A stretch of 48,004 bases of DNA from the NCBI GenBank assembly GCA_031289955.1, contig JAITOL010000100.1, positions 1-48,004 on the forward strand, in the 5' to 3' direction. Numbering within the stretch: the stretch's first letter is position 1; each line of letters opens with the position of its first letter. The position numbers and the translations under genes were made by a program. Shown one piece after another: positions 6,094 to 18,458 of the stretch. The DNA comes from Synergistaceae bacterium (GTDB lineage: Bacteria; Synergistota; Synergistia; Synergistales; Synergistaceae). The notes beneath the pieces were generated by a model that was not told where the DNA came from, did no database searches, and saw nothing but the letters and a program-made list of their open reading frames with translations.

Positions 6094-6126
6094 TTGATGT
6101 CATATTGACGATAGCTAATGTACTAT
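6094..6126 (+). promoter_or_regulatory. Putative hutI promoter: two 11-bp-phased repeats (TTGATGTCATA, TTGACGATAGC) then -10 TACTAT
   Basis: Same architecture as the fhs and hutH upstream regions. Confidence 0.5.
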
Positions 6127-6148
6127 TCAATCAGATGGAGGTGGCCCA

Positions 6149-7396
6149 ATGAAAAAAACTGCCGAACTTGTGATAAAAAACGCTCTTGAACTGCTGACAT
6201 GCGCCGAGGACGCGTCCGACCTCATCGGCGTTGTGAATAACGGTTGGCTTGCCGTGAGCGAAGGCAAAATAGCCGCGCTAGGCGACGAGAAAGAGATAGC
6301 GCCGATGATTTCGGGATCCACCGAGGTTATCGACGCGTCAGGCAAAGTGGTCGCCCCGGGCTTCGTGGACAGCCATACGCATGTCGTGTTCGGAGGAACC
6401 AGGGTGGGGGAGTATTTCGCCAAAATCGAAAATCTGTCGGACGACGAGATAAAACGGCGCGGCATAAAGACAGGTATTTTGACGACGCTCAAACCCACCA
6501 AAGAACATTCTCTGGAGGAACTGTATGAAGAGACCGCGCTTCGAGTCCGCGACATGATAGTCTCAGGCACTACGACCGTCGAGAGCAAGAGCGGCTACGG
6601 GCTCGACCGGGATACGGAGATAAAACAGCTCACTGTGAACCGTCTCCTGGAACGCCGCCTGCCGATAAGCGTCGCGTCCACGTTCCTCGGCGCTCATGGA
6701 TGGCCGCGCGACATGGAAAAAGGAAAATACATGGATTTTCTGATAAACGAGATGATACCGTTCGTGGGTTCACAGGGTCTGGCCGAGTTTTGCGACGCGT
6801 GGTGCGACGAGGGGCATTACACTGCCCGCGAATGTGGCGTCATACTGGAAGCGGGCCTTAAAGCCGGTATGAAGCCCAAACTCCACGAGGGCGGTTATTC
6901 GTACATAGGCGGCGCCGAGGTCGCCGCGGATCTGGGGGCAGTGTCGGCGGATCATCTCAACTACGACCCGAGGCCGTCGCTGCGCCGTCTCGCCAAAGCA
7001 GGCACGGTCGGCACTCCGCTGCCCGGCATAGATTTCGCCGTCGGGCATATTCTGCCGTTCGACCCGGCCCCAATGATCGAAGAGGGCCTGGAGCTCGCGA
7101 TAGCTACGAACTGCTGCCCGGGCTGCTGGTGCACATCTATGCCTTTCATCCTGATACTCGCGTGCAGGGAGCACGGCATGTCGTCGGAACGCGCTATCCG
7201 CGCCGCGACGATCACCGGCGCTAAAGCCCTTTCGAGGCAGGAGACGATAGGGTCGCTCGAAATTGGCAAAAACGCGGACATACAGATATGGAATCTCGAA
7301 CGTCATGAGGATATAGCGTATCACTACATGACGAACCCTGTCGAAACCGTGATCAAGAACGGCCGCGTCGTGGCGCGTAACTCGATGCTCGTCTAG
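6149..7396 (+). CDS. hutI: Imidazolonepropionase
   Basis: APGFVDSHTHVVFGGTRVGEY, KSGYGL, HEGGYSYIGGAEVAADLGAVSADHL; hut context. Confidence 0.95.
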   Translation: MKKTAELVIKNALELLTCAEDASDLIGVVNNGWLAVSEGKIAALGDEKEIAPMISGSTEVIDASGKVVAPGFVDSHTHVVFGGTRVGEYFAKIENLSDDEIKRRGIKTGILTTLKPTKEHSLEELYEETALRVRDMIVSGTTTVESKSGYGLDRDTEIKQLTVNRLLERRLPISVASTFLGAHGWPRDMEKGKYMDFLINEMIPFVGSQGLAEFCDAWCDEGHYTARECGVILEAGLKAGMKPKLHEGGYSYIGGAEVAADLGAVSADHLNYDPRPSLRRLAKAGTVGTPLPGIDFAVGHILPFDPAPMIEEGLELAIATNCCPGCWCTSMPFILILACREHGMSSERAIRAATITGAKALSRQETIGSLEIGKNADIQIWNLERHEDIAYHYMTNPVETVIKNGRVVARNSMLV

Positions 7397-7439
7397 TATT
7401 TTACTGATATACATAAAATAATTCTCCGGAGGGATGTAT

Positions 7440-8333
7440 ATGAAAAAGATAATGCTTTGCGAACTCAACGTCAGCGAAGGGACCGACTCGGTCAAGATCG
7501 AGGCGGTCACGGACGCTCTGTCGTCGACCCATGACATAACCGTTATAGAGGTCAACTCCGACCATGACCATAACCGAAGCGTTTTTTCGTTTATCGGGGC
7601 GCCTGAGGTAGTCCTCGCTGGCGCCAAGAACGCGGCGGGACGCGCCGTCGAGCTCATAGATATGAGCGTCCACAAGGGGAGCCACCCTCGCATGGGAACG
7701 ATAGACGTCGCTCCGTTCGTGCCTATACGCGGGGTTACGATAGACGAAGCGCTCTCGGTCGCGCGAGAGTTCGGCAAATTTCTCGGATCGCTCGGCGTGC
7801 CTGTCTATTATTATGAGGACGCGGCCACGAGGCCGGAGCGCCAGAACCTGGTCGACATACGCAAAGGGCAGTATGAGGCGCTGGCTGAAAAAATGAAGGA
7901 TGAGGCCTGGAGGCCGGACGAAGGTCCGTTCGCGTTCGTTCCCAAGTCGGGCGCCACTGTAACCGGCGTTCGCTTTCCTCTTGTGGCGTTCAACGTCAAT
8001 CTCCGCACTACCGACCTCTCGGTGGGAAAGGAAATAGCGAAGAGGATGCGTTTTTCGAGCGGCGGCCTCAGATTTTGCCGCGCGATAGCGCTGGAACTCA
8101 CCGATAAGAATATGATACAGGTATCCATGAACCTGACGAACTTCGAGAAGACGCCAATACCCGTGGTGTTCGACATGGTGAAGTCCCTGGCCGACAGCTT
8201 CGGAGTCGGCATAGCGGAGAGCGAACTCGTCGGCCCGCTGCCACTCGCCGCGATAGAGGATGTTATGCGGCATTGTCTGCGCGTGCGAGCCTTCACGGTC
8301 GAGCAGATCGTCGAGAGCCATCTCCTCGGCTGA
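7440..8333 (+). CDS. ftcD: Glutamate formimidoyltransferase
   Basis: LCELNVSEGTDSVKIEAVTDAL...VNSDHDHNRSVFSFIG...HKGSHPRMGTIDVAPFVPI; RBS ggagg favours the ATG at 7440 over 7434. Confidence 0.93.
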   Translation: MKKIMLCELNVSEGTDSVKIEAVTDALSSTHDITVIEVNSDHDHNRSVFSFIGAPEVVLAGAKNAAGRAVELIDMSVHKGSHPRMGTIDVAPFVPIRGVTIDEALSVAREFGKFLGSLGVPVYYYEDAATRPERQNLVDIRKGQYEALAEKMKDEAWRPDEGPFAFVPKSGATVTGVRFPLVAFNVNLRTTDLSVGKEIAKRMRFSSGGLRFCRAIALELTDKNMIQVSMNLTNFEKTPIPVVFDMVKSLADSFGVGIAESELVGPLPLAAIEDVMRHCLRVRAFTVEQIVESHLLG

Positions 8334-8358
8334 TCGGGCCGACGTCATATTGCACAGC

Positions 8359-8402
8359 GCCCAACAAGAAGCTCCCCCGCGCGGGGGAGCTTCTTGTTGG
8401 GC
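8359..8402. terminator. 44-bp perfect palindrome between convergent ftcD and hutH (bidirectional terminator)
   Basis: GCCCAACAAGAAGCTCCCCCGC|GCGGGGGAGCTTCTTGTTGGGC, exact 22-bp arms, no loop, no U-tract. Confidence 0.8.
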
Positions 8403-8427
8403 TGGATTGCCCGCTAATAAGGAGGAT

Positions 8428-9960
8428 TTATGCCAGAGGGCCGGTCGCCCGCTCGACCGCTTCGAGCAGCTCCCCGCTGCCGACGAGCTCGGCGGAGGCA
8501 TTCTGGTCGCCCGCGAATATACGGTCGTTCTCCATCATCTCCACCTTCGAGCGGATGGCCTTGTACGCCGCCTCGGTGCCGCGTCCCATCCCGCGCTTTT
8601 CCTGAAGATCGATGGCCTGTGCCGCGCACATCAGTTCTATACCCAGGATCATTTTGACGTGCTCGACGATTGTGGCCGCCTTGCGGGCCGCTATCGTCCC
8701 CATGCTGACGTGGTCCTCCTGACCGGCCGACGTCGGTATCGAATCCACGCTTGCCGGATGAGCGAGCACTTTATTCTCCGATACCAGGGCCGCTGCCACA
8801 TACTGGGGAATCATGAATCCACAGTTGATGCCGCCCTGCTTCACGAGGAATGCCGGCAATCCGTGGTTCATCGCCGGGTCGACGAGTTTGGCTATGCGGC
8901 GCTCTGAAACGTTGCCCATCTCGGCAATCGCTATGGCCAGGGTGTCGGAGGCTATGGCCATCGGCTGCCCGTGAAAGTTGCCGCCGGAGAATACGTCGCC
9001 GCTGTCCGTGAATACGAGGGGATTGTCCGTGACGGCGTTCATCTCCGTCCCGAAGACGCCCGCAACGTAGTCGAGCGCGAGCCTGCTGGCGCCGTGTATC
9101 TGCGGTGTGCAGCGGATGGAGTAGGCGTCCTGTACTCTCAGTTCGCCCTGTCGCGTCGTGTACTCGCTGCCTTCGAGCATCTTGCGGACATTGGCGGCGC
9201 TGTCCATCTGTCCCTTGTGCTTTCTTATGGAGTGGATTCTGGGGTCGAACGCGTTTATTATCCCGCGAAGAGATTCCACGGTGAGCGCGCCGATAGCGTC
9301 GGCGGATTTGACGAGTATGGAGGAGTCGTAATAAGCGTGCGCCGCGACGGAGGTCATGCACTGCGTGCCGTTGATGAGGGCGAGCCCCTCCTTTGCGCGA
9401 AGTGAGATGACCGGGATGCCCGCTTTTTCCATGGCGTCACTCCCGCTTATTACCTGGCCCCTGTATTCGGCCTCTCCAAGCCCCAGCATCGGCAAGACCA
9501 TGTGGGAGAGAGGGCAGAGGTCGCCGCTCGAACCGACGGAGCCTTTTTCGGGGATGACGGGGTGCACGCCTTTGTTGATCATTTCAAGAAGAGTGTCGAT
9601 CAATATGGGCCTTACGCCGGAAAAACCGTTCGCGAGAGAGTTCGCCCTGAGAAGGAGCATACCGCGCACGACATCCCTCGGAAGCGGGTTGCCGACCCCG
9701 CAGACGTCCGACAATATGAGATTTATCTGGAGAAGGTTTACCTCGTCCTCCGGTATCGCTACGTCGGCGAAACGCCCGAACCCGGTGTTTATGCCATACA
9801 TAGCCCGTCCCTCGGCGACGAGCGAGTCGACTGCCTTGCGTGAATCGTTCACTCGCGTTATTGCCTCGTCCGCTATGCCGACGCTCGCGTTTTTGCGCGT
9901 CACGGATATGAAATCCTCGAATGTCAGATTTCCGCCGTTCAATGAAATATGATGTGCCAT
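8428..9960 (-). CDS. hutH: Histidine ammonia-lyase
   Basis: GSVGSSGDLCPLSHM (MIO ASG-type motif), ALINGTQCMTSV, ...NFHGQPMAIASDTLAIA. Confidence 0.96.
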   Translation of the reverse strand: MAHHISLNGGNLTFEDFISVTRKNASVGIADEAITRVNDSRKAVDSLVAEGRAMYGINTGFGRFADVAIPEDEVNLLQINLILSDVCGVGNPLPRDVVRGMLLLRANSLANGFSGVRPILIDTLLEMINKGVHPVIPEKGSVGSSGDLCPLSHMVLPMLGLGEAEYRGQVISGSDAMEKAGIPVISLRAKEGLALINGTQCMTSVAAHAYYDSSILVKSADAIGALTVESLRGIINAFDPRIHSIRKHKGQMDSAANVRKMLEGSEYTTRQGELRVQDAYSIRCTPQIHGASRLALDYVAGVFGTEMNAVTDNPLVFTDSGDVFSGGNFHGQPMAIASDTLAIAIAEMGNVSERRIAKLVDPAMNHGLPAFLVKQGGINCGFMIPQYVAAALVSENKVLAHPASVDSIPTSAGQEDHVSMGTIAARKAATIVEHVKMILGIELMCAAQAIDLQEKRGMGRGTEAAYKAIRSKVEMMENDRIFAGDQNASAELVGSGELLEAVERATGPLA

Positions 9961-10017
9961 CTCGGATCCTCCCAGTACTAAAGTGTGTTTCGATGGTTAA
10001 ATATTGAACATATTTTG

Positions 10018-10060
10018 ATTATATTAGAGATTTCATCAAGCGCCTCATTGATTTCATCAT
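10018..10060 (-). promoter_or_regulatory. Putative hutH promoter/operator: -10 TATAAT (10018-10023), repeats TTGATGAAATC (10029-10039) and ATGATGAAATC (10050-10060)
   Basis: Two near-identical 11-mers offset by exactly 21 bp, proximal copy 5 bp from the -10. Confidence 0.5.
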
Positions 10061-10163
10061 ATAAATAAATTATCGCGAAAGCGTGTCAAAAATATGTAAA
10101 ATATATGGGATATAATCATGATGGCTTACGCCGTAAGGCGGGGCCTTTTTTAGCGCGGTTTTA

Positions 10164-10195
10164 TTGATATGAAATTGACGATATCCCGATATAAT
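10164..10195 (+). promoter_or_regulatory. Putative fhs promoter: TTGATATGAAA + TTGACGATATC (11-bp phased) then -10 TATAAT (10190-10195)
   Basis: The 20-mer TTGATATGAAATTGACGATA matches hutI TTGATGTCATATTGACGATA at 17/20 positions. Confidence 0.5.
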
Positions 10196-10232: not shown

Positions 10233-11906
10233 ATGACATATAAAACTGATATAGAAATAGCTCAGGAGACCGTTATGGAGCCTATATCGAAAGTCGCCGC
10301 GTATCTGGGCATTGCGGACGATGAGCTGGAACATTACGGTAAATACAAGGCGAAGGTAACGCATGAACTCTGGGACAGGATAAAGGACGGGCCGGACGGG
10401 CATCTCATCCTTGTCACGGCCGTGACCCCCACGCCGGCAGGCGAGGGAAAGACGACGACGTCCGTAGGCCTCGCTCAGGCTCTCGCCCATATCGGCAAAA
10501 AAGTGACGCTCGCCCTTCGCGAGCCCTCGCTCGGCCCGGTTTTCGGCATAAAGGGCGGCGCCGCCGGCGGCGGATACAGCCAGGTCGTGCCCATGGAGGA
10601 TATAAATATCCACTTCACCGGCGACTTTCACGCAATAACGTCTGCCCACAACCTGCTCGCCGCTATGCTCGACAACTCGATCCAACAGGGCAACCCCCTC
10701 GGCGTCGACTCTCGCAGAATCGTCCTTCGCAGGGCGCTCGACATGAACGACAGGTCGCTCCGCAAGATAGTGATAGGGCTCGGCGGCAAGACGGAGGGCA
10801 TTCCCCGCGAGGACGGTTTTGACATAACGGTCGCGTCGGAGGTCATGGCGATACTCTGTCTCTCCCGCGATCTGGACGACCTCAAGGGCCGCCTCGCTGA
10901 GATAATCGTCGCTTACACATACGATGGCAAACCTGTCCGCGCGCGAGACCTGGAAGCCCATGGCGCCATGGCTATGCTTCTGAAGGACGCCATAAAGCCG
11001 AATCTGGTTCAGACGATCGAACACGTTCCGGCGTTTGTCCACGGCGGGCCATTCGCCAATATAGCCCACGGCTGCAACAGCATCATGGCGACGAAATACG
11101 GGCTCAAGCTCGCCGACTATTTCATCACTGAGGCTGGTTTCGCCGCCGATCTGGGGGCAGAGAAGTTTCTGGACATAAAATGCCGCCTCGCCGGGCTCAA
11201 GCCGAGCGCTGTAGTTATAGTGGCGACGATACGAGCGCTCAAGATGCACGGGGGGCTCCACAAAAATGACCTTGCGACGCAAAATCTGAAAGCGCTCGAG
11301 GCCGGCATACCGAACCTCGAAAAGCATGTGGAGAATATCCTCTCGTACGGACTTCCGGTTGTTGTGGCGCTCAACGCCTTCCCGACCGACACCGACGAGG
11401 AGCTGGGTTTCATCGTGGAAAAATGCGCGAAGCTTGGCGTCTCCGTCGTCCGTTCGGATATATGGGCAAAGGGCGGAGTGGGCGGTATAGAGCTTGCCGA
11501 GGCGGTCATCGCGGCATGCGACGCGCCCAACACGTTTCACTATCTCTACGAAGAAGACGCCTCTCCCGCGGATAAGATAACTACGATAGCTACGAAGATA
11601 TATGGGGCGCAGGATGTCAATTTCACGCCCAAGGCCATGTCGGACCTGAAGCTCATTCACGAACTTGGCTACGACGATCTGCTCATATGCATGGCAAAGA
11701 CTCAGTCGTCCCTCTCGGACGACCCGAACGCGAAGGGGCGTCCCGAGGGATTCACCCTGACGGTTCGCGAGGTGAGGCTTTCCGCCGGAGCTGGTTTCAT
11801 AATTCCCATAACGGGCGCGATAATGACGATGCCCGGCCTTCCGAAACGCCCAGCCGCCTGCGACATAGACGTGGACGGCAACGGGCGAGTATCGGGACTG
11901 TTTTAA
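10233..11906 (+). CDS. fhs: Formate--tetrahydrofolate ligase
   Basis: [55 protein letters not shown], full-length. Confidence 0.97.
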
Positions 11907-11925: not shown

Positions 11926-13938
11926 ATGTTTGACGCTGCTGGAAAAACTCTGGAGATACGGCTGGATTTTCCAAACGGGCTGCCCGCTAAAACCGAGTTT
12001 GAACCCGGCATAAGAAGGGCCCCGAACAGAGGTCAGATATTGAACGAGTCCGAGATGGTTCTGGCGCTCAAAAACGCCCTGCGCTACATACCGGAAGAGC
12101 GCCACAGGGAAATAGCGCCCGAGTTTCTGGCGGAGTACCGCGAACACGGCCGCGTTTACGGCTATCGTTTCCGCCCCGCCGGACGCCTCACGGGCAAGCC
12201 GATAGACGAATACAAAGGCAAATGCGCAGAGGGCCGCGCGTTTCAGGTGATGGTGGACAACAACCTCGACTTCGACGTCGCGCTCTATCCCTATGAGCTG
12301 GTGACGTACGGCGAGACCGGCCAGGTCTGTCAGAACTGGATGCAGTACCTGCTGATCAAAAAATATCTCGAAATATTGACCCAGGATCACACTCTCGTGA
12401 TAGAGTCCGGTCATCCTCTTGGGATTTTTAAATCGAAGCCCGATGCCCCGAGGGTCATACTGACGAACGGCCTCATGATAGGCATGTTCGACAACACCGA
12501 GGGCTTCACGCGCGCCGCCGCGCTGGGCGTCGCCAATTATGGGCAGATGACAGCCGGCGGCTGGATGTACATAGGCCCGCAGGGCATCGTCCACGGAACT
12601 TACAACACGCTGCTCAACGCCGGCAGAAAGAAGTTCAGACTCCCCGAGGGCAAGGGGCTCGCCGGGCATCTTTTCGTCTCGTCCGGACTGGGCGGCATGA
12701 GCGGAGCGCAGCCTAAAGCCGCCGAGATAGCCGGCGCCGCCTCCATAATCGCCGAGGTCGACCCTTCGCGCGTCGACACCCGCATCACGCAGGGCTGGGT
12801 GAGCAAGAGGACTCGCGACCTGTCCGAAGCCTTCAAATGGGCGAACGAGGCTATGGCCGAGGGCAAAGCCCTGTCGATAGCGTATGAGGGCAACATAGTG
12901 GATGTGCTTCAGTACGCGCTTGATAACGATAAAAAGGTCGAGCTGCTCTCGGATCAGACATCATGCCACGCGGCCTACGAGGGCGGATACTGCCCTCAGG
13001 AGACGACGTTCGAGGAACGCACGCGCCTGCTGCAAAGCGACCCATACGAATTCCGCCGCTGCGTCGACAGAAGTCTTCGCAGGCACTTCGAGCTGATAAA
13101 GGCGCTCGTGGATAAGGGCACATATTTCTTCGACTATGGCAACTCGTTCATGAGGGCCATCTTCGACTCAGGAGTGAAAGAAATAGCCAAAAACGGGGTC
13201 GACACCTACGATGGCTTCATATTCCCGTCCTACGTGGAGGACATAATGGGGCCGCTGCTCTTCGATTATGGCTATGGCCCCTTTCGCTGGGTCTGCCTGA
13301 GCGGGAAGCCCGAGGATCTGCGCGCGACGGACAATGCCGCGATGGATTGTATCGATCCGGCAAGACGTTTTCAGGATCACGACAACTGGGCATGGATACG
13401 CGACGCGGAGAAAAACAAGCTCGTAGTAGGCACGCAGGCCCGTATCCTCTATCAGGATGAAGAGGGCCGCATGCGCATAGCGCTCAAGTTCAACGAGATG
13501 GTCCGCCGCGGTGAGATAGGCCCGGTTATGATAGGCCGCGACCACCACGATGTCTCCGGAACCGATTCGCCGTTCCGCGAGACCTCCAATATAAAGGACG
13601 GCAGCAACATCATGGGCGAGATGGCTATACAGTGTTTCGCTGGCAACTGCGCGCGCGGCATGAGCCTGGCTGCCCTTCATAACGGCGGCGGAGTCGGCAC
13701 AGGCAAGTCGATCAACGGAGGGTTCGGCCTCGTTCTGGACGGCAGCGGAAGGATAGACGAGATAATCCGCAGCTCGATAAGCTGGGACGTGATGAGCGGC
13801 GTTGCTCGCCGCGCCTGGGCCCGCAACGAGCACGCCATGGAGACCATAGCGGAGTTCAACGGCAAACGCGGCGACGGCCATATAACCCTGCCATATGTGG
13901 CGGACGAAACGTACCTGGAGTCGCTAGTCAAAGGTTAG
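11926..13938 (+). CDS. hutU: Urocanate hydratase
   Basis: GLGGMSGAQPKAAEIAGA, MAIQCFAGNCARGMSLAALHNGGGVGTGKSINGGFG. Confidence 0.94.
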   Translation: MFDAAGKTLEIRLDFPNGLPAKTEFEPGIRRAPNRGQILNESEMVLALKNALRYIPEERHREIAPEFLAEYREHGRVYGYRFRPAGRLTGKPIDEYKGKCAEGRAFQVMVDNNLDFDVALYPYELVTYGETGQVCQNWMQYLLIKKYLEILTQDHTLVIESGHPLGIFKSKPDAPRVILTNGLMIGMFDNTEGFTRAAALGVANYGQMTAGGWMYIGPQGIVHGTYNTLLNAGRKKFRLPEGKGLAGHLFVSSGLGGMSGAQPKAAEIAGAASIIAEVDPSRVDTRITQGWVSKRTRDLSEAFKWANEAMAEGKALSIAYEGNIVDVLQYALDNDKKVELLSDQTSCHAAYEGGYCPQETTFEERTRLLQSDPYEFRRCVDRSLRRHFELIKALVDKGTYFFDYGNSFMRAIFDSGVKEIAKNGVDTYDGFIFPSYVEDIMGPLLFDYGYGPFRWVCLSGKPEDLRATDNAAMDCIDPARRFQDHDNWAWIRDAEKNKLVVGTQARILYQDEEGRMRIALKFNEMVRRGEIGPVMIGRDHHDVSGTDSPFRETSNIKDGSNIMGEMAIQCFAGNCARGMSLAALHNGGGVGTGKSINGGFGLVLDGSGRIDEIIRSSISWDVMSGVARRAWARNEHAMETIAEFNGKRGDGHITLPYVADETYLESLVKG

Positions 13939-13960: not shown

Positions 13961-14590
13961 ATGGCTTTTGAGGCGGATACGATAAAAGTTTTTCTGGACG
14001 AATTGGCGAGCGATTCCCCCGCGCCTGGCGGCGGCAGCGTCGCGGCTTTGGGGGGCGCGCTTGGCGCGGCCCTGGTATCCATGGTGTCGAACCTCACCAT
14101 CGGCAAGGAGAAGTATCGCGAAAATTGGGCGGCGATGGAGGAGATAGCGCAAGAGAGCGAGCGGCTTCGCGGGGAGTTCGTGAGGCTCATGAACGAGGAC
14201 ACTGAATCGTTCAACGTTTTCATGTCGGCCATGAAGATGCCCAGGGACACGGACGAGCAGAAAGCCGCCCGCGGGAGCGCCCTTGCGGACGCGGCTAAGG
14301 GCGCGACGGAGGTTCCTCTCTCTACGCTCGAAAAATGCGCCGAGATGGCTTGTCTGGCGTCGCGCGCCGTTTCGCTGGGCAACCCGAACACGGCGAGCGA
14401 CGCGGGAAGCGCGGTTTTGCTCGCCGAAGCGGCGGGGAAGGGCGCGGCTTATAACGTGCGAATCAACCTGCCCGGCATAAAGGACGAGATTTACGCGGCG
14501 GAGGCCCGTCGCAGGATGGCGTCCGCTCTCGACAGGATCGCGAAGAGCTCGGGTGAAGCCGAACGGAGCATGGATAAAATTTTAGGATAA
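13961..14590 (+). CDS. fchA: Formimidoyltetrahydrofolate cyclodeaminase (FchA/FTCD C-domain)
   Basis: LDELASDSPAPGGGSVAALGGALGAALVSMVSNLTIGKEKY...NPNTASDAGSAVLLAEAA. Confidence 0.93.
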   Translation: MAFEADTIKVFLDELASDSPAPGGGSVAALGGALGAALVSMVSNLTIGKEKYRENWAAMEEIAQESERLRGEFVRLMNEDTESFNVFMSAMKMPRDTDEQKAARGSALADAAKGATEVPLSTLEKCAEMACLASRAVSLGNPNTASDAGSAVLLAEAAGKGAAYNVRINLPGIKDEIYAAEARRRMASALDRIAKSSGEAERSMDKILG

Positions 14591-15689: not shown

Positions 15690-16901
15690 TTAGTTGCCAG
15701 TCATCTGGATGCTGAGATATTTCTCGGGAACCGGGACGTCGGCCACTCCGAGATATCCGCTGCCGAGGATGTAGGTGTCCTGATAGACGAGGAAGAAGTT
15801 CCTCATCGGCTTTTTTGTAGCCGCGTCTACGTAGAAGTTGCCGTTCCATTTGGCGCCGGGCGAAAATTTGCCGTAGCTTTCGAGAAGAACATTCGTGTCG
15901 GTTATCTTCGCTTTGCCCTCTGCGACGAGTTTGCCGAATTCAGCAAGTCCGGCGGTGTGGGAGAAACCGACCGAATAGGCCCATGTTCCCATGCGGCCGC
16001 TCGCGCCCTTCGCCACTATCGCGTCCTCCACCTTCTTGAGGATTGCCGGCCAGTCTCCGGATATTCCCTGGAGGTCTATGCCGAAAGCTCCGGGAAAACC
16101 CATCAAAGGAGAGGGGAGATCCGCTTCTACAAAGTAGCCGCCGTATTCGCCCAGCTGGCGGAGCAGAGGCTCTGTGTGTGCGTCGTTTGTGCAGAAAAAC
16201 GCCGTGTCTTTTCCATACTGCTCGATCCAGGCGGGAGTCCTCTCCAGTATGAACTGCTGAGCTCCGGCCACGCCCACGTCGCTTGTCGGATCGGGGGCCG
16301 TCTCGAACACGAATTTGATGCCGAGATCCTTGCACGCCTCTTCCATGATCGCCCGGCGGCGTCCGAGCGTCTCATAGCTCATGTGACGCGGGAAGGAGAT
16401 GTGGACGAACGTCTTCGCGCCGAGTTGCTTCGCCGAGTGGGGGATGAGATACCCGCGCGAAATGAAGTCCGCGTTTGTCGTGAGATCGGCCACGGAGGCT
16501 ATTACGTTCGGATCCTCGTGCGCTTCGCCCGCGAGGCAGATTATGTCGGGGCGCTTCTCTTTGATCTTGCGGAAGCCCTCGGTCGTCCCGGGGATCGCCT
16601 GGTTGACTACGACTACCTTCATGAGCGGGTCGTCCGCCAAGCCCGCTATCTGAGCTATTGTCGTCTCCATCTCGGACATGAAGTTGTCGGGATAGGTGAG
16701 GTGCTTGATCATTCCGCCGTTCGAGACGTCTCCGTAAAGACGGATCATCTCCTCGGCGCCCCTCAGGTCATCCTCGCTCTGCGACACCGTTCCTGTCACG
16801 ATACCGATGTGAAACGGCGAGTCGGCCGCCATGGCGGTTACGGAAAACAACGCTGTGATTACAAACGCCAGCGCCGCCAATATCGTTACTTTCTTCTTCA
16901 T
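15690..16901 (-). CDS. DUF3798 periplasmic binding-protein-like protein (copy 1)
   Basis: Signal peptide MKKKVTILAALAFVITALFSVTAMAA; FHIGIVTGTVSQSEDD...; GAGGAGG RBS before ATG at 16901. Confidence 0.8.
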   Translation of the reverse strand: MKKKVTILAALAFVITALFSVTAMAADSPFHIGIVTGTVSQSEDDLRGAEEMIRLYGDVSNGGMIKHLTYPDNFMSEMETTIAQIAGLADDPLMKVVVVNQAIPGTTEGFRKIKEKRPDIICLAGEAHEDPNVIASVADLTTNADFISRGYLIPHSAKQLGAKTFVHISFPRHMSYETLGRRRAIMEEACKDLGIKFVFETAPDPTSDVGVAGAQQFILERTPAWIEQYGKDTAFFCTNDAHTEPLLRQLGEYGGYFVEADLPSPLMGFPGAFGIDLQGISGDWPAILKKVEDAIVAKGASGRMGTWAYSVGFSHTAGLAEFGKLVAEGKAKITDTNVLLESYGKFSPGAKWNGNFYVDAATKKPMRNFFLVYQDTYILGSGYLGVADVPVPEKYLSIQMTGN

Positions 16902-16987
16902 TACGCTGCTCCTCCTCATAAAATATTTGAACTTCTTTATATTTCTGAATTATCCGCGAATGACCGCGGGAAGTTCCGTTTTAGAGC

Positions 16988-18202
16988 CTATTTGATGTCC
17001 AGATATTTCTGCGGAACCTCGAGGTTCGTAACTCCCATATATCCCCTGCCGAAAATGTACGTGTCCTGATAGACGAGCACGACGTTGCGCAGCGTCGCTC
17101 CGGTATTCGTATCCTTATACGCGCTGCCGTTCCAGCTTGCGCCCGGCGTAAATTTGTCGTATGCCGCCCACAGGTCTTTTGTGTCGCCGAGTTTCGCGTT
17201 GCCCTCGACTATGTTTTTGCCGTACTCGGCCAACGCGCACGTCGTGCTCCATCCGTAAGAGTAGGCCCAAGTTCCCATGCGCCCCGAGCCGCCCGCTGTC
17301 GCAACGGCTTCCTCGACTTTTTTCAGTATCGCGGGGAAATTTCCCGACTCATTCTTGAGGTCGATGCCGAACGCTCCTGGATAGCCCATGAGCGGCGAGG
17401 GGAGGTCGGGCTCGACAAAGAGCGCGCCGTACTTGGCCACCTGGACGAGCAGCGGCTCGGTCTGCGCGTCGTTTGTAGCGAAGAAAGCCGTCTCTTTTCC
17501 GTATTTATCTATCCAGTTCGGAACCTGCTCCAGTATGAACTGCTGGGCGCCGGGGATGCCGACGTCGCTGGTGGGGTCGGGAGCGGTCTCGAAGATGAAC
17601 TCCATGCCGAGGTCTTTGCAGGTCTGCTCCATGATTGCGCGCCTGCGGGCCAGCAGCTCGTAGCCCATGTGGCGCGGGAACGAGATGTGAACGAATTTTT
17701 GGGCGCCGAGTTCCTTGGCTGTGTGGATGATGAGGTATCCTCTCGCCACGTTGTCGGCGAATATTGCCAAATCGGCGACAGCCCCAATGACGCCCGGATC
17801 CTCCTGCGGCTCGCCCGCGAGACAGATGATGTCGGGGCGCTTTTCCTTGACGCGGCGAAAAGCCTCAGTAGTTCCGGGGATGGCGTCGTCGACTACGATG
17901 ACCTTGACCTTGGGATCGTCGGACAGGCCGACTATCTGGGTGATGGTAGTTTCCATCTCCGACATGAAGCTGTCTGGCATCGTGACGTGCCTTATCATTC
18001 CGCCCTCGGAAGCGTTTCCGTAGAGGCTTATGAGATGTTCGGCCGCCCTGTATGTATCCTCAGCCTGTGATACCGTCAGGGTCGCCACTCCGATGTGGAA
18101 ATCCGGCGCCGCCGCGAAAGCCATGCTTCCCGTCATAGCGAGAATGAACGCTGCCAATAGAGCATAGAAAAATAAGCGCTTTTTTGATGTGAATATACAC
18201 AT
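16988..18202 (-). CDS. DUF3798 periplasmic binding-protein-like protein (copy 2, tandem paralog)
   Basis: Colinear and strongly similar to copy 1 across the whole length; start at MCIFTSKK with GGGAGG RBS rather than the upstream ORF start. Confidence 0.8.
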   Translation of the reverse strand: MCIFTSKKRLFFYALLAAFILAMTGSMAFAAAPDFHIGVATLTVSQAEDTYRAAEHLISLYGNASEGGMIRHVTMPDSFMSEMETTITQIVGLSDDPKVKVIVVDDAIPGTTEAFRRVKEKRPDIICLAGEPQEDPGVIGAVADLAIFADNVARGYLIIHTAKELGAQKFVHISFPRHMGYELLARRRAIMEQTCKDLGMEFIFETAPDPTSDVGIPGAQQFILEQVPNWIDKYGKETAFFATNDAQTEPLLVQVAKYGALFVEPDLPSPLMGYPGAFGIDLKNESGNFPAILKKVEEAVATAGGSGRMGTWAYSYGWSTTCALAEYGKNIVEGNAKLGDTKDLWAAYDKFTPGASWNGSAYKDTNTGATLRNVVLVYQDTYIFGRGYMGVTNLEVPQKYLDIK

Positions 18203-18287
18203 TGAGGATCCCTCCCAGAAAATATGTTGCGTTACGAGAAAAAGGGGCGTTGCAATTGTATATTTGTGTTTCTCAAACGATGATGAA

Positions 18288-18316
18288 ATTATCCATACCA
18301 AAATAAGCATTGTCAA
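18288..18316 (-). promoter_or_regulatory. Sigma70-type promoter for the DUF3798 tandem: TTGACA-17 bp-GATAAT
   Basis: Reverse strand TTGACA (18316-18311), spacer of 17, GATAAT (18293-18288). Confidence 0.65.
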
Positions 18317-18458
18317 GTAATAAGGGAACAGCAAAACACTATATTCAGGATATATTCCGAAAAAATATGTAAATATCATGAATTTTCAGCGAATTGTATA
18401 ATAAAAACCGCGTTGTTTACAATTCATCCGTTGGATGATGAATATATTTAACGTATAA

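Follow-up and report, generated by a model that had tools for sequence, protein, structure and literature searches.

Regulators of the AfsR/SARP family are known mainly from antibiotic-producing Streptomyces. The literature presents SARPs as activators of antibiotic genes that occur chiefly in actinomycetes; their promoters have a poor −35 element and direct repeats spaced by 11 or 22 bp, of which the 3′ one lies 8 bp away from the −10 element (PMC10936776). In AfsR of Streptomyces coelicolor, a protein of ~1000 aa, a winged helix-turn-helix (wHTH) domain is followed by BTAD, STAND and TPR regions (structures 8hvr, 8k60 and 8jke); its afs box consists of two 11-bp direct repeats that lie over the −35 region of a weak core promoter and end ~8 bp before the −10 element (PMC10936776). 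SARP-LAL regulators such as PimR are likewise large ATP-binding regulators and use two or three copies of a heptamer with 11-bp spacing, but the PimR operator is clear of the −35 region and controls an antibiotic regulator gene (PMC5930380). Known regulators of the hut genes are of other kinds. HutC (a GntR repressor) and HutP (an RNA antiterminator) act on histidine catabolism or transport and differ from SARPs in family and site type, while the sites of HisR, which concerns histidine biosynthesis, are 20-bp palindromes (PMC9413887). A SARP-like regulator of the route formed by the hut genes and fhs did not turn up in the literature searched. Here we describe a conserved SARP-type box, TTGAYR-N5-TTGAYR, at the promoters of a hut/fhs gene cluster in a Synergistaceae bacterium. 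The stretch of DNA analysed, hereafter the window, comprises 48,004 nt of contig JAITOL010000100.1 from assembly GCA_031289955.1 (2.65 Mb; coded G000).

The cluster consists of three units, hutI-ftcD, hutH on the opposite strand, and fhs-hutU-fchA, which jointly encode the conversion of histidine to glutamate and formate (Table 1). Both strands of the window were scanned for two TTGAYR hexamers that start 11 bp apart, with at least 11 of the 12 positions matching and a −10 element after N8–11. Exactly three matches were found, at hutI (6094), fhs (10164) and hutH (10100, minus strand), whereas shuffled sequences gave a mean of 0.35 and a maximum of one. At each of these promoters the repeats are direct and 11 bp apart, the −10 element is fair, and there is no good −35 element. 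The hexamer pair ends 9–10 bp upstream of the −10 element; a heptamer would therefore leave 8–9 bp. Hence, the boxes agree with the published SARP promoters in repeat spacing (11 or 22 bp), in distance to the −10 element and in their poor −35 elements. The Pho box, to which PhoB binds, is a 6-N5-6 arrangement in which 11-bp direct repeats replace the −35 element ~10 bp upstream of the −10 element, and the boxes described here resemble it in all of these respects.

The initial annotation of this DNA had proposed the 11-mer TTGAYGAWAKC as a box shared by the three units. Every repeat that it quoted was found in the window. At hutI, TTGATGTCATA (6094–6104) and TTGACGATAGC (6105–6115) are followed by the gap TAATG and by TACTAT (6121–6126), and at fhs, TTGATATGAAA (10164–10174) and TTGACGATATC (10175–10185) are followed by CCGA and TATAAT (10190–10195). 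At hutH the quoted repeats lie on the minus strand (10060–10050 and 10039–10029), ahead of TATAAT (10023–10018). The central claim of helically phased direct repeats in place of the −35 element was borne out at all three units and by conservation in relatives. The full 11-mer consensus is too long, as conservation is confined to the TTGAYR core and the 11-bp phase. Allowing one mismatch, it is moderately enriched in the window (17 versus 6.4). Because the assembly contains 27 exact copies, the single 11-mer is uninformative as a genome-wide marker, and it was dropped as a marker of the regulon.

The hutH site had to be relocated. When the region upstream of hutH was aligned with that of G010, the nearest relative carrying the gene cluster, the best conserved stretch was ATATTTTACATATTTTTGAC.CGCT.TTCG.GATAATTT, which is the region of the composite site (10100–10069). 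The pair with a 21-bp offset, previously taken for the hutH box, is not conserved in G010: both 11-mers have decayed, and the TTGATG beside the −10 element reads CTGCGA. A second hutH promoter that uses the TATAAT at 10018–10023 is possible.

To assess conservation, upstream stretches of at most 300 bp were collected from relatives for hutH, hutI, hutU, fhs and the regulator genes linked to them. Among promoters of hut, fhs and SARP genes from genomes with a BTAD regulator (SARP-bearing genomes), 15 of 33 contained a TTGAYR pair (at least 11/12 positions) at an offset of 11 bp; the remaining offsets between 7 and 30 bp gave 0–4 pairs each. Full 12/12 pairs occurred nine times, compared with 0.02 in shuffles, and seven times compared with 0.03 when the window's genome was left out. 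The distance to the −10 element was tightly fixed. Among 20 sites picked without any −10 requirement, a spacing of N9 placed at least five matching positions of TATAAT at nine sites, and all other distances from 2 to 19 did so at 0–2. The box recurs in relatives upstream of hutH, hutI, hutU and fhs. In G025 and G036, the SARP genes have a version with repeats 22 bp apart, and G135 and G086 have triple repeats.

A stricter pattern, TTGAYR-N5-TTGAYR-N8-11-TANNNT, gave three matches in the entire 2.65-Mb assembly: hutI, fhs and G000:C96:22691. The hutH site was missed because it reads TTTACA and GATAAT. The box at G000:C96:22691 precedes a carrier gene of the Na_H_antiporter families PF03553/PF13726, whose orthologue in G010 retains the box as TTGGTG-N5-TTGACG-N9-AATAAT. 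Homologues of this carrier adjoin hut genes in G025, G036 and G024, and we infer that it transports histidine or urocanate. In 12 SARP-bearing genomes the composite pattern matched 16 times, compared with once for the reversed pattern, and 12 of the 16 matches precede hut, HAL, molybdenum (Mo) hydroxylase, hut-linked transporter or SARP genes. With TTGAYG hexamers, 183 genomes of the order yielded 38 matches versus seven for the reversed control. TTGAYG pairs at any spacing in the window's genome showed no genome-wide excess at 11 bp (2 of 52, of which one lies within a coding sequence), which implies a small regulon rather than a global one. Judged by these sequence comparisons, the box is real, conserved and part of a small regulon.

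A protein of ~1000 aa is recurrently encoded beside the boxes, with an N-terminus of approximately GxPxIExDGxRxxFPLKKAEAxLxYLAxEGxAxRExLKxLFWGDKxExQASxNLRNALYLLRxxxP. Only one BTAD protein is encoded in the window's genome: G000:C204:9008-12034 (1008 aa), with a putative wHTH followed by BTAD, AAA_16/STAND ATPase and TPR regions. Its Pfam scores were 39 bits for BTAD (PF03704; cut-off 22.1), 69.5 bits for AAA_16 and 30.2 bits for TPR_12. BTAD was matched in all 17 aligned N-termini. A profile built from these N-termini matched the AfsR structures 8hvr, 8k60 and 8jke over wHTH and BTAD (positions 4–225; E 5e-9 to 6e-8) and EmbR (2fez) over BTAD (1e-7). The wHTH segment was related to OmpR DNA-binding domains with an hhalign probability of 76%, and the aligned N-termini did not reach the Pfam threshold for PF00486. 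These matches point to an AfsR-like large SARP, of which the DNA-binding part is supported but not proven. In a tree, the protein groups with those of G010 and G022 in a clade of ten (99% SH-aLRT) that also includes the hutU-linked SARPs of G025, G036 and G135. It differs from AfsR in belonging to a distant lineage and in the predicted repeat, TTGAYR instead of CGTTYATCG; AfsR targets antibiotic and phosphate genes, whereas the genes here are catabolic (histidine, Mo-hydroxylase/ammonia-lyase).

At least six genomes have SARP genes beside hut genes. They lie directly 3′ of hutH in G030, G036, G015 and G025 (where this copy is broken into several frames) and are oriented divergently from hutU in G025, G036 and G135; one in G022 precedes a hutU-like and an fchA-like gene, named by sequence resemblance, in the same direction. 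SARP paralogues are also found divergent from, or close to, Mo-hydroxylase, aromatic-lyase and BCCT clusters that bear TTGACG-N5-TTGACG boxes. PF00486 genes were surveyed in eight genomes, and none of them shared a contig with hut genes or, in complete genomes, lay close to a hut locus. As SARP genes repeatedly adjoin hut and no OmpR-family response-regulator gene does so at the loci checked, a SARP is the best candidate for the regulator. Two observations concern individual genes in these clusters. In G025, the SARP gene 3′ of hutH (L218:5548-10113) is fragmented while the hutH box is kept, and the genome has other, intact SARP paralogues. A MIO-type aromatic amino acid lyase of the same genome (L294:10462-12861), behind a TTGACG-type box, is apparently split into two adjacent open reading frames (367 and 426 aa), as is also seen in L301 (G166) and L388 (G030).

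Table 1. Genes and predicted promoter elements of the hut/fhs cluster in the window.
Feature	Position	Strand	Remarks
SARP-type box and −10 of hutI-ftcD	6094..6126	+	TTGATG-TCATA-TTGACG-N10-TACTAT; conserved in G010 as TTGATG-N5-TTGACG
hutI, imidazolonepropionase	6149..7396	+	NCBIfam TIGR01224, 340 bits, cut-off 298
ftcD, glutamate formimidoyltransferase	7434..8333	+	NCBIfam TIGR02024, 387 bits
hutH, histidine ammonia-lyase	8428..9960	−	NCBIfam TIGR01225, 674 bits
Previously proposed hutH repeat pair (21-bp offset) and TATAAT	10018..10060	−	in G010 box part unconserved, TATAAT kept
SARP-type box and −10 of hutH	10069..10100	−	TTTACA-TATTT-TTGACA-N9-GATAAT; conserved in G010
SARP-type box and −10 of fhs-hutU-fchA	10164..10195	+	TTGATA-TGAAA-TTGACG-N9-TATAAT
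fhs, formate--tetrahydrofolate ligase	10233..11906	+	NCBIfam NF010030, 906 bits
hutU, urocanate hydratase	11926..13938	+	NCBIfam TIGR01228, 446 bits
fchA-like methenyl-tetrahydrofolate cyclohydrolase / cyclodeaminase	13961..14590	+	NF045657, 206 bits, below cut-off 275

A terminator-like hairpin with a T run (~10124–10152, plus strand) separates the hutH and fhs promoters. A similar hairpin occurs upstream of fhs in G002, G004, G006 and G009, 3′ of a gene with an ABC substrate-binding-like C-terminus. Beyond the fchA-like gene and a transporter-like open reading frame, two tandem periplasmic-protein-like genes lie on the minus strand (15690–18379), the first of which is DUF3798 (PF12683).

We consider it likely that an AfsR/SARP-family activator uses the repeats as its operators, with G000:C204:9008-12034 as the probable regulator. 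The earlier proposal that one regulator controls both histidine catabolism and the fhs branch gains support from the conserved phased repeats at all units, as far as sequence can tell. That proposal had named an OmpR/PhoB-family activator; the OmpR-type winged-helix class is supported, but a two-component response regulator has given way to a SARP as the best candidate. A response regulator would account for 6-N5-6 repeats ~10 bp before the −10 element, since this is the layout of the pho box too, and G000 has nine PF00486 matches, one of them on the contig of the SARP gene. PhoB, however, is under receiver-domain and kinase control and recognizes TGTCA, and regulators of its kind show no genomic linkage here: the PF00486 genes of the eight genomes are unlinked to hut, unlike the SARP genes. 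Boxes of a response regulator are therefore unlikely in our view. We assign a slightly smaller probability to the repeats being repressor operators, at which a bound protein would block RNA polymerase. The box does cover the −35 and spacer region, and elsewhere repressors such as HutC govern the catabolic hut operons (PMC12977541). Yet the linked regulator belongs to an activator family and has a STAND module, and activation is favoured over repression because a good −35 element is absent and the distance to the −10 element is fixed at N9.

The half-site of Crp/Fnr-type factors resembles TTGAT, so that such a factor might be thought to control hutI, and in G003 a gene with a Crp-type helix-turn-helix and a cNMP domain (L214:1401-2150) indeed lies directly 5′ of hutI. 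Crp/Fnr sites are inverted repeats, whereas the repeats here are direct at 11 bp, and such a gene beside hut was noticed in G003 only; control by a Crp/Fnr-type factor is accordingly very improbable. The G003 gene may by itself represent a replacement of hut control in that species. Lastly, the repeats could be a chance by-product of AT-rich promoter sequence. The single 11-mer, with its many genomic copies, is common enough to suggest this, but the three composites in the window against the shuffled expectation, together with the sharp 11-bp spike in relatives, make chance hardly credible.

Several observations weigh against a SARP as the regulator. The SARP gene of the window's genome does not adjoin hut but sits on a different contig, and its own promoter shows no clear box. 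The wHTH segment alone scores weakly on solved structures, with no significant match in the Protein Data Bank. Within the genus, presence of the regulator and presence of the box correlate only partially: G003, G006 and G008 have box-like pairs while a SARP gene was undetected in these drafts, which are 80–96% complete. In the f9 genomes G053 and G060, the box lies upstream of a Mo-hydroxylase gene and a BTAD protein was not found. Of the f9 genomes, G060 (L295:11484-11934), G053, G063 and G064 have the box 5′ of the Mo-hydroxylase small-subunit gene, and an XRE-type regulator gene overlaps this region.

From the boxes, their phase, position and conservation, and from the domains and linkage of the SARP genes, we propose the following mode of binding, activation and induction. 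Two protomers of the N-terminal OmpR-like wHTH and BTAD domains would bind as neighbours on the pair of 11-bp repeats. These repeats occupy the −35 region and spacer, and the bound SARP would bring RNA polymerase to promoters whose −10 element is fair and whose −35 element is poor. In this manner the G000:C204 protein may switch on hutI-ftcD, hutH, fhs-hutU-fchA and the putative histidine/urocanate carrier, once autoinhibition by the STAND/TPR module is relieved by an inducer, for which histidine, urocanate and formiminoglutamate are candidates.

More tentatively, and with the balance slightly against it, the expanded paralogous SARP-STAND activators in the order, which is one of anaerobes, might be pathway-specific regulators of the catabolism of imidazole and related nitrogen compounds, each sensing its own metabolite through STAND-TPR and all sharing one common TTGAYR box. 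The catabolic range would extend from histidine to the Mo-hydroxylase/ammonia-lyase/BCCT clusters. If this is true, the SARP family is as much a catabolic as an antibiotic regulator family. Even on its own, a regulon of this kind for histidine fermentation, found in a distant lineage and equipped with a defined box and a linked SARP, would widen the role of the family, and it would provide the hut-fhs route, which turns histidine into glutamate and formate, with a control logic. It would also offer a small, ligand-rich system for studying what switches large SARP/STAND activators on, in which the candidate inducers are few and simple metabolites.

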